64,000 bases of DNA from Desulfurivibrio dismutans. GTDB taxonomy: Bacteria > Desulfobacterota > Desulfobulbia > Desulfobulbales > Desulfurivibrionaceae. The stretch is taken from positions 124,001 through 188,000 of the forward strand of contig NZ_JARGDQ010000005.1 in assembly GCF_029210385.1 (NCBI RefSeq), read 5' to 3'. The position numbers and the translations under genes were made by a program. Below the pieces are notes generated by a model that searched no databases, was not told the DNA's origin, and saw only the letters and a list, made by a program, of their open reading frames with translations. This document shows positions 2,308-62,499 of this stretch, in pieces (position 1 is the stretch's first letter; the number at the start of each line of letters is the position of its first letter).

Positions 2308-3237
2308 TTACCTTGCTTCCGCCAGGGCCAGCAGCACCGGCACGGCGGTGTCCACCCGGAGGATGCGCGCCCCCCAGGAGAAAGGAATAAAACCTTGATC
2401 TTGAAAGCAGTTTATTTCAAAGTCCACCCACCCCCCTTCGGGGCCGATGGCCAGCAGTCGGCGTTGGGCCAGATCGCGTAAGCAATCACGGGGCACCTGT
2501 GAAAGCGGTGATTGCGCCGGCGCTGAAGGGGGCAGATATGAAATTTGTCCCTGGTCATCCATCGCCGTCTCGCCTGCCGTAACCTGCGGCCCCTTGTGAC
2601 CGCTTACCAGGGCTTTGGCGGTGCCGGATGGCGGCGCGCCGGCGGGTGGATTTTGCTGCCGGTTGGTGGTATGCCGGCGGGGCCCGGAGTCGGTGGCCTC
2701 GGCGGGCGCCTTTTCGGGGTGGGCCAGCAGTCGTAAAGGACCGGCAGGGTGGGGCGACGGCAGCTCATCTTCAATAAAAGGGCGAAAGCGTGTATGCACG
2801 CTGACGGTTGGCAGCCGCGTGTCGCCGGCCTGTTCCAGGCCCTGGAGCAGGGCCGTTCTGATCCCGGCGGGAGCGAGCAGCGAGGAGTTAAAGAAACTTT
2901 TTTCCACCCGCCGGGCGTTGGTCAGCATGATGCGGTCAACCCCCATGGCGGCGGCCTGGGCCAGCACCCTTTTGAGCATGATCGGCCGGGGCAGGGCCAG
3001 GATAAGGGCGGTGGCGGCTTTGGTCGGCGGGTCTTGGTGGCAGTCAAGCTGGAGCGTGACTTCTCGGCGGCTGGTGGCCAGCACCCGGGCCGAGCCCATG
3101 GGGCCGTCGATAATGCCGGCCCGCAGCAGATCTCCGGGCCGGCTTTTGAGTACCCGGCCGATGTGCTCGGCACGGCGGTCCCGGAGATTAACGGTGTTGG
3201 CAACTATCTCGTCGTGTTCCAGCAGGATGATGTTCAT
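2308..3237 (-). CDS. rsmE: 16S rRNA m3U1498 methyltransferase RsmE with an unusual internal insertion
   Basis: RsmE is a SPOUT-fold enzyme that methylates N3 of U1498 in 16S rRNA using S-adenosylmethionine. The C-terminal IGPEGGW and WGARILRVDTAVP segments form the SAM-binding trefoil knot, and the N-terminal part matches the PUA-like domain. The protein has 309 residues whereas typical RsmE has about 245. The excess is a Pro/Ala/Gly/Gln-rich stretch at roughly residues 160-250, placed directly before the SAM knot. Part of it (residues about 210-253) is bounded by inverted motifs that also occur in valS. The reading frame is intact, so the enzyme is probably functional with a surface loop. 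Confidence 0.93.
   Translation of the reverse strand: MNIILLEHDEIVANTVNLRDRRAEHIGRVLKSRPGDLLRAGIIDGPMGSARVLATSRREVTLQLDCHQDPPTKAATALILALPRPIMLKRVLAQAAAMGVDRIMLTNARRVEKSFFNSSLLAPAGIRTALLQGLEQAGDTRLPTVSVHTRFRPFIEDELPSPHPAGPLRLLAHPEKAPAEATDSGPRRHTTNRQQNPPAGAPPSGTAKALVSGHKGPQVTAGETAMDDQGQISYLPPSAPAQSPLSQVPRDCLRDLAQRRLLAIGPEGGWVDFEINCFQDQGFIPFSWGARILRVDTAVPVLLALAEAR
2478..2607. repeat. Palindrome-bounded in-frame insertion in rsmE
   Basis: The segment starts with GTAAGCAATCAC (2478-2489) and ends with GTGACCGCTTAC (2596-2607), which match in inverted orientation at 10 of 12 positions. An inner pair, GCAATCAC at 2482 and GTGATTGC at 2508, is a perfect inverted repeat. The terminal motif resembles the arms of the 51-bp hairpin inside valS. 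The 16 bases from 2478 to 2493 match the intergenic sequence at 12809-12824 at 15 of 16 positions when inverted. The region codes for residues absent from ordinary RsmE. Confidence 0.5.
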
Positions 3238-12793: not shown

Positions 12794-12824
12794 AATTGCC
12801 TGGCAATTCCCCGTGATCGCTTAC
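12794..12824. repeat. Short palindrome plus motif shared with the rsmE insertion
   Basis: AATTGCC-T-GGCAATT (12794-12808) is a perfect 7-bp stem. The following 16 bases (12809-12824, CCCCGTGATCGCTTAC) match the inverted sequence at 2478-2493 in rsmE at 15 of 16 positions and resemble the valS hairpin arm. It lies in the 79-bp gap where pilT and comEC converge. Confidence 0.5.
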
Positions 12825-26600: not shown

Positions 26601-26737
26601 GGTAGCTGTCCGGTAAGCACCCCGTCTTGCGGCGATCAGGTCGGCTTGAGTACCTGATGTTAAGCTACGCCGACTTAGCTTACCGCAACCTGGGGCGCTG
26701 CTGGATGGTTACGTGCCGGAATGAGCTGGATAGTTAC
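26601..26737 (+). mobile_element. 137-bp transposase-less element, copy 1
   Basis: The copy runs from GGTAGCTGTCC to GCTGGATAGTTAC. It is flanked on both sides by the 7-bp duplication ATCTTTT (26594-26600 and 26738-26744). The internal part has the inverted core GGTCGGC/GCCGAC. A coding frame of about 60 residues across it is not preserved as a gene. It lies in the 330-bp gap before the BCCT transporter, whose remainder holds no other clear signal. Confidence 0.9.
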
Positions 26738-33777: not shown

Positions 33778-33912
33778 TGTAACTATCAAGCCCATTCCGA
33801 CAGGTAACCATCCAGCAGCGCCCCAGGTTGCGGTAAGCTAAGTCGGCGTAGCGTACACCAGGCACTCAAGCCGACCTGATCGCCGCTTTCGGGGGCACTG
33901 ATGAACAGTTAC
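33778..33912 (-). mobile_element. 135-bp transposase-less element, copy 2 (inverted)
   Basis: The copy runs from TGTAACTATC to ACAGTTAC and lies in opposite orientation to the other two. It is flanked by the perfect 7-bp duplication ACCTGGT (33771-33777 and 33913-33919). It shares the GGCGATCAGGTCGGCTTGAG block with copies 1 and 3. It sits in the 450-bp gap 33675-34124; the rest of that gap shows no gene. Confidence 0.92.
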
Positions 33913-36776: not shown

Positions 36777-39530
<2,754 letters not shown>

Positions 39531-44734: not shown

Positions 44735-44947
44735 GGTTGCTCCGAAAATTGCCTGCCATTGCCTGGCCTGGCCGTGAGTTATTCTTGAAAAGGCTGCCTG
44801 TGTGCGCCGATGGTGGTGGGGCAACAATATAAAACGGGCGGGAAAGATAAACAAGTGTTAATGATGAGGGGGTAGCCCTGTAACCCACTGCCGCGGTAGC
44901 AAAATTGTCGGCGTCAAAAAAAAACGCGCCGCCGACTGGGCAGGCTT

Positions 44948-44998
44948 TGTAACTTCTTGTTTTCGCGTTGCCGACCAACGAGTTTGGCGGTTTTTTGC
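44948..44998 (+). repeat. 51-bp dispersed repeat, copy B
   Basis: The copy begins TGTAACTT and ends GGCGGTTTTTTGC. It aligns gap-free to copy C at about 42 of 51 positions. It is placed in the 278-bp gap between the REC-GGDEF-EAL start and the rtcB stop, and ends 15 bp after the rtcB stop in genome coordinates, so on the minus strand the repeat lies directly downstream of rtcB. Confidence 0.65.
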
Positions 44999-57080: not shown

Positions 57081-57239
57081 TGCTTCTCTGCCTTGACGGA
57101 TGATTGGCTGTCATCTCCGTGATTGAGTTTGCCTTGCGCGTATAATCGTGTTCTGGAGTCGAAGCCGTCGGATAGGCAACTTCAACATGGCCTTTGCGAC
57201 CAGTCGTCACCGTTGCTGTGTCGCCGGCTGGGCTCACAC

Positions 57240-57290
57240 TGTAAGTCATTGCTTTTGCGTTGCCGGCCAACATTTTTGGCGGTTTTTTGC
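57240..57290 (+). repeat. 51-bp dispersed repeat, copy C
   Basis: The copy begins TGTAAGTC and ends GGCGGTTTTTTGC. It matches copy B at about 42 and copy A at about 41 of 51 positions, without gaps. It is in the 533-bp gap 57081-57613, where I see no gene. A second GGTTTTTTGC block with similar following bases is at 57565-57596. A weak promoter-like pair, TTGAAA/TATACA at about 57386-57412, has poor spacing. Confidence 0.65.
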
Positions 57291-58921: not shown

Positions 58922-59058
58922 TGTAACTGTCCAGCAGCACCCCCGTATTGCGGCGATCAGGTCGGCTTGAGTACCTGATGTGCGCTATGCCGACTCGGCT
59001 TACCGCAACTTGGGGCACGTCTGTTCAGTTACGTGCCCCGAATGAGCTGGATAGTTAC
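58922..59058 (+). mobile_element. 137-bp transposase-less element, copy 3
   Basis: The copy runs from TGTAACTGTCC to GCTGGATAGTTAC. It is flanked by the perfect 7-bp duplication AATAAGT (58915-58921 and 59059-59065). The two ends are inverted repeats with 13 of 14 matches. The orientation is that of copy 1. It lies between skp and the dxs stop. Confidence 0.93.
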
Positions 59059-62261: not shown

Positions 62262-62499
62262 TGTTGTGTCTCCTTGGGTTAACCATGTACGTCCAGCAGC
62301 ACCGCCGAAAATGGCGATTGGCCCGGCATGCTTACAGGGGGGTGCGCGGTGAGCGGAACGGCGATGCGTGCTTCAGCACCGGAGCCACTCCAATCTTGGC
62401 AAGATTGTGGTGTGCCGTCACTGTTTTCCAACATACAATGAAGCACCGTCGAGGGGCAATCTCTTTCCAAAAAAACCGGCCTGTGGTAGGTTATCGGTG

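Follow-up and report, generated by a model that had tools for sequence, protein, structure and literature searches.

The insertion at positions 2478-2607 in rsmE is a member of a dispersed family of palindromic elements, which has at least 149 covariance-model (CM) matches in the 2.84-Mb genome that contains the window (the whole stretch of 64,000 nucleotides analysed here) and at least 90 in each of three relatives (G001, G002, and G013), of which G002 is a closed genome in one contig of 3,097,763 bp. Very probably, this insertion represents an old copy of a non-autonomous transposable element (MITE) that is mobilised in trans and generates an 8-bp target duplication. The relevant genes and family members in the window are as follows:

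2308..3237, minus strand: rsmE, 16S rRNA methyltransferase, 309 aa (ORF; Pfam PF04452 in two stretches; relatives)
2478..2607, plus strand: type-A composite element in rsmE (CM 85.1 bits, E 3.6e-26, the copy being part of the model; alignment; translation)
12809..12824, minus strand: isolated type-A end between pilT and comEC, with GTAAGCGATCACGGGG on the minus strand (sequence match)
26602..26737, plus strand: type-B element, target duplication 7/8 (atcttttg/atcttttt)
33779..33912, minus strand: type-B element, target duplication aaccaggt, 8/8
36777..39530, minus strand: valS, valyl-tRNA synthetase (ORF; Pfam)
37670..37718, minus strand: short 49-nt deletion form of type A, in frame in valS (sequence; CM 38.7 bits, E 3.4e-10 at 37655-37718)
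58923..59058, plus strand: type-B element, target duplication aataagtt, 8/8
62351..62395, minus strand: shared-core fragment, model positions 33-77 (CM 26.3 bits, E 6.6e-6)

The element within rsmE

The original prediction had described the rsmE insertion as bounded by short arms resembling those of an insertion in valS, and these arms were found as claimed: GTAAGCAATCAC (2478-2489) and GTGACCGCTTAC (2596-2607) lie inside the minus-strand rsmE ORF, and valS bears ATAAGCGATCAC...GCGACCGCTTAT at 37670-37718 on the minus strand. The proposed match between positions 2478-2493 and the reverse complement of 12809-12824 is likewise present, with 15 of 16 bases identical. As to the intergenic relative suggested for the pilT-comEC gap, a type-A end of about 16 bp does exist there, but it is a solo end for which no full element was recovered.

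The rsmE copy is 130 nt long and composite, containing a nested CAGATTTGAAATCTG-type palindrome (also found in the ileS and cbiA copies) and missing the outer 24 nt of a full element; in the sense of the gene it encodes LVSGHKGPQVTAGETAMDDQGQISYLPPSAPAQSPLSQVPRDCLR. No target duplication is recognisable around this copy (2/8 at the outer edge of the model, and none clear by eye at the inner edge). A comparison of RsmE lengths, which had been put forward as a check, gave 309 aa here versus about 245-260 aa in most relatives, and the insert is absent from G001, G002, G004, and ten further relatives. In the AlphaFold prediction of RsmE (mean pLDDT 72.9, 11 sequences), both sides of the insert are confident and residues 178-243, which hold most of it, have pLDDT values below 50; the insert is thus modelled as disordered within a confident fold. 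The linker in which it is located varies among the other genomes of the genus as well. The second, short palindrome around CAGATTTGAAATCTG occurs at about 10-20 genome sites (e.g., C1:19091, C10:1997, C29:20498, and C31:172058) and, where nested in several coding copies, reads DRGQISNLS or similar. In addition, the same linker in the rsmE gene of G001 (L055) contains GGGCGATCAGCCAGGCTTGAGTACCCTGTGTACGC, which looks like a type-B core by eye; insertions may have landed in this linker more than once.

Architecture and copy number of the element family

Three element types (A, B, and C) with a common core were distinguished. Full type-A copies have 133 or 136 nt (GTAAGCGATCACGGGG...CCCCGTGATCAGTTAC) and, as seen from extracted pairs, combine two parts, a near-perfect palindrome of 109 nt and, behind it, a 24-nt stretch ending in GTGATCAGTTAC that holds a second terminal repeat, the outer end. 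The terminal inverted repeats are GTAAGCGATCACGGGG and inverted GTAACTGATCACGGGG, and the folding z-score of one full copy is -8.5. As in other MITEs, the element is short (133-136 nt), bounded by such repeats, present in many copies (at least 149 matches), and without a transposase gene. Searching the window and eight loci against Rfam at gathering score returned tRNA only and no family for the element.

The covariance model was built from 18 sequences, which include the rsmE copy and not the valS copy, and the genome search proposed beforehand recovered both (rsmE at 85 bits, E 3.6e-26; valS at 38.7 bits, E 3.4e-10). The outcome named in advance as refuting a family, namely that the 12- to 16-bp matches are to be expected by chance in this GC-rich genome, finds some room in the modest excess over shuffled sequence within the window alone, where two motif matches were found versus 0.23 expected and 1 of 100 shuffles reaches two. 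Genome-wide, however, the exact GTAAGCRNTCAC pattern has 52 sites versus 0 for the reversed pattern used as control, and CM E-values in the same genome reach 6e-52; together with the 8-bp duplications described below, these results refute a chance origin of the short matches and hairpins, to which we assign practically no probability. The GTAAGCRNTCAC sites are often paired and inverted, with a start-to-start spacing of 97 bp.

Target site duplications and mobility

Identical 8-bp words flank several type-A copies (e.g., GTTTTAAT, CCTGTAAC, CGGAAAAA, and GTCAGTTG). For type-A copies scoring at least 40 bits, the flanks match at 7 or 8 of 8 bases in 12 of 29 (0.011 expected), and for type B the same degree of matching was observed in 18 of 32 (about 0.01 expected). 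The target site duplication is of fixed length (8 bp), as in MITEs, and, since it has been kept by several full copies, the elements are considered to be mobile MITEs.

Uninterrupted sites in relatives could also be identified. The rlmN copy keeps a perfect CGGAAAAA duplication, and removal of 133 nt and one CGGAAAAA from rlmN would leave ...RPGAIPEKSRISNLVFMGMGEP; G002, where rlmN carries no insert, reads ...RPGATGEKTRINNLVFMGMGEP. E. coli RlmN (3rf9) can be aligned to both flanks of the rlmN insert, which in that protein are separated by just a short linker. The valS copy, whose element segment encodes ISDHQEPHLAAPGDRLS, is present as the same segment in G002 and absent in G001 and G004, implying that it is older than the split of the two species. 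The cbiD copy also occupies the same site in G002 and in the genome of the window, and the sharing of these two copies with G002 indicates persistence through speciation. The 8-bp duplications, the uninterrupted sites, and ten internal in-frame copies (see below) support the earlier proposal of a single mobile family able to occupy in-frame positions within genes.

In-frame copies in conserved genes

Coding copies were surveyed in 491 kb of stretches around model matches on the basis of ORFs, codon bias, and Pfam. Analysis of ORFs and codon bias revealed ten internal in-frame copies in the genome, which are of type A or composite; the Pfam check covered nine hosts and found domains on both sides of the inserts. 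Beside the copies in rsmE and valS, in-frame copies were located at the following positions:

C30:132357: rlmN
C29:20533: ileS
C30:48828: rarA/mgsA
C23:81507: nspC
C1:14759: cbiE
C1:16175: cbiD
C28:100977: hypF
C23:71070: PEP-synthase-like gene (named from reading its sequence only)

Copies at gene ends were found for cobQ, rsmB, korA, cbiA, a NifB-like gene, an ABC ATPase gene, and rimI, and murF of G002 contains an in-frame copy with a perfect TTGCCGAT duplication, whose predicted insert reads VTDYGGHGVSGHRVPQ... (all of these genes were named from reading their sequences). For the copies at N-terminal ends, the true start codon may be downstream of the element. Out-of-frame type-A copies flanked on both sides by coding sequence were also detected (e.g., C23:141257 and C12:56073), and these may correspond to gene boundaries or broken genes. 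An unusual density of copies was noted in the cobalamin locus L235 (C1:7800-20800), with copies in or at cobQ/cbiP, cbiF, cbiE, cbiD, and cbiA.

Preservation of the host reading frame

The lengths of element and duplication add up to 141 (133+8) or 144 (136+8) nt, both multiples of three, and only two of the six frames of the type-A consensus (+0 and -0, one per orientation) lack stop codons. Because of this divisibility and the one open frame per orientation, an insertion in the right phase keeps the frame of the host. Among 25 full type-A copies, frame +0 is open in 17 and frame -0 in 18, and any other frame in at most two. In type B, which resembles type A in size and likewise duplicates 8 bp, the corresponding two frames are open in 10/32 and 9/32 copies, and no copy among the 34 was found to lie within a gene. 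Internal coding copies account for 8 of 52 type-A copies versus 1 of 123 copies of types B and C (Fisher P 2.8e-4); this count leaves out valS, whose short copy was missed by the sequence profile, and the test is supportive rather than blind because the list of coding copies was curated by the author. The lengths of variant copies are split about evenly with regard to multiples of three and, for this reason, no selection for multiples of three is claimed.

The simplest reading of these data is that copies enter genes freely and that the survivors are those that keep the frame and lie in a tolerant loop. Under such a scenario, a transposase acting in trans would recognise the GTAA-type ends and insert the 133- or 136-nt element, duplicating 8 bp of the target. 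In the right codon phase, and in either orientation, the insertion would add 47 or 48 codons and leave the host protein in frame, whereas selection would presumably remove insertions in other phases or in rigid protein parts. Surviving copies would then occupy flexible loops, as in the RsmE model, and might later decay by deletion (as the valS, rarA, and nspC copies suggest) or by loss of the outer end (rsmE). Host proteins carrying the insert are presumably produced and functional.

It is conceivable, though we consider it rather doubtful, that type A has itself been shaped by selection for tolerance in genes (a multiple-of-three length and stop-free frames) and spreads through coding sequence, some copies (valS and cbiD) having become fixed protein segments. 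A stronger version would see the inserts in genes as domesticated protein segments, retained for a function that increases the fitness of the host and not just tolerated. It could draw on the valS and cbiD copies, both of which have been maintained with an open frame in two species. However, the RsmE insert is modelled as disordered, the rlmN and rsmE copies are missing from close relatives, and inserted segments decay by deletion, which makes domestication quite unlikely.

Candidate transposases

The IS66 signature consists of a terminal repeat of 20-30 bp starting with GTAAGCG and of 8-bp direct repeats (PMC11946415), the latter also described elsewhere for this family (PMC3281130). The element has 8-bp direct repeats, and GTAAGCG is present at its left end and at the inner end of the palindrome, both of which fit this signature, but its outer right end is GTAACTG. 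The single IS66 of the genome and that of G002 have the ends GTAAGCGCTCAATGAACCCC and GTAAGCGCTCAGCAAACCCC, which have only GTAAGCGNTCA in common with the element and diverge from it after 11 nt. IS66 was also undetected in G001 (79% complete) and G013, both of which are rich in copies. On balance, we slightly favour a transposase of the IS66 family over one of some other family as the mobilising enzyme; with resident ends that match in part and two copy-rich genomes in which IS66 was undetected, IS66 is not regarded as a proven partner. No autonomous element with the ends of the family was found. The only IS66 in the genome (L052, C3:89957) is flanked by a direct repeat of about 115 bp (CAACCATCTGTTGACC...GAGCTGATCG), with no clean 8-bp duplication.

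The abundance of palindromes with paired arms, together with three Y1 transposases in the genome, might also recall REP/REPIN sequences, that is, palindromes moved by RAYT (a Y1 single-strand transposase) without target duplication. However, 8-bp duplications are present here, the three Y1 genes have no family ends around them, and the element ends begin with GTAA rather than GTAG or GTRG. A RAYT/REPIN origin is therefore disfavoured and appears highly improbable, and a MITE mobilised in trans remains our preferred explanation.

Comparison with known systems

Rickettsia palindromic elements (RPEs), reportedly described by Ogata et al. in 2000 and 2002, are the closest known case. RPEs are palindromes of 105-146 bp that occur between genes and also form in-frame fusions with conserved protein-coding genes (PMC2229807; PMC10969869), and their target duplication is listed as '?' (PMC2229807). 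Like RPEs and their Wolbachia counterparts, the present elements are palindromes with terminal inverted repeats that lie both in intergenic regions and in frame in genes, and palindromes of about 105-150 bp are inserted in frame in conserved ORFs, as is typical of RPEs. However, the hosts of RPEs are obligate intracellular bacteria, whereas the element described here belongs to a free-living, GC-rich bacterium of the Desulfobulbales type and has visible 8-bp duplications; the likeness drawn here is one of kind rather than of descent.

The same element resembles IS66 insertion sequences in having one GTAAGCG end and 8-bp direct repeats, but differs from them in its length of 133-136 nt, the lack of transposase genes, the other end (GTAACTG), and the limited stretch (11 nt) common to resident ends. 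ERIC, YPAL, and other bacterial MITEs are also small non-autonomous palindromes that yield hairpin transcripts, some with open frames (PMC2229807); here, in contrast, ten internal in-frame copies reside in conserved genes of one genome, and the element plus its duplication is a multiple of three. REP/REPIN sequences moved by RAYT have in common with the element a high copy number of palindromes and inverted paired arms, and are set apart from it by its 8-bp target duplication, GTAA ends, and lack of RAYT association. In a collection that lacks most subscription journals, our literature search found nothing relevant about repeats of Desulfurivibrio or about IS66 MITEs located within coding sequence.

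New aspects are the bacterial group in which the elements occur, the 8-bp duplications that can be seen directly, the sites without insertion in relatives, and an arithmetic explanation of how the frame is preserved. A mobile palindrome has repeatedly entered conserved genes of a sulfur bacterium, including those for tRNA synthetases and rRNA methyltransferases, and adds amino acids in frame. Protein-coding palindromes previously came from Rickettsia and Wolbachia, and they are now seen in free-living bacteria with intact duplications and a closed genome (G002). The system offers a way to test how mobile DNA can lengthen essential enzymes by dozens of residues and leave them intact, which transposase is responsible, and whether the inserts serve a use or are neutral.

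Sister types and other repeats

Type-B elements, of which three copies are within the window, have the ends GTAACTGTCCAGC...GCTGGATAGTTAC and an 8-bp duplication as in type A. Type C comprises 89 hairpins of about 109 nt in the genome (e.g., L175:1533-1633, L140:3690-3817, and L146:1568-1699), which have neither the outer 24 nt nor a target duplication and gave no Rfam match in the loci tested. Type C is an oriented element of gene 3' ends: the stop codon of a coding ORF is found within 40 nt of the left edge in 70 of the 89 and of the right edge in five, and the TAA stop is provided by the element's own GTAA in 26. The T content behind type C is slightly raised (0.27 versus 0.20). Its basal 12-bp arms are highly diverse (67 distinct arms in 82), yet 93% of positions pair, versus 70% with shuffled partners.

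Another dispersed repeat, about 70 nt long and unrelated to the family (TTGCAAAAAACCGCCAAA...CAACGCGAAAACAA type), is present at 390-458, 44930-44998, and 57222-57290 of the window and also in L006, where it adjoins a GTAAGCGATCAC end. Finally, positions 515-611 of the window are an intergenic segment between long inverted arms (GGTAAGTCAAGCACCTTA / TAAGGTGCTTGACTTACC), which is possibly another GTAA-ended element.
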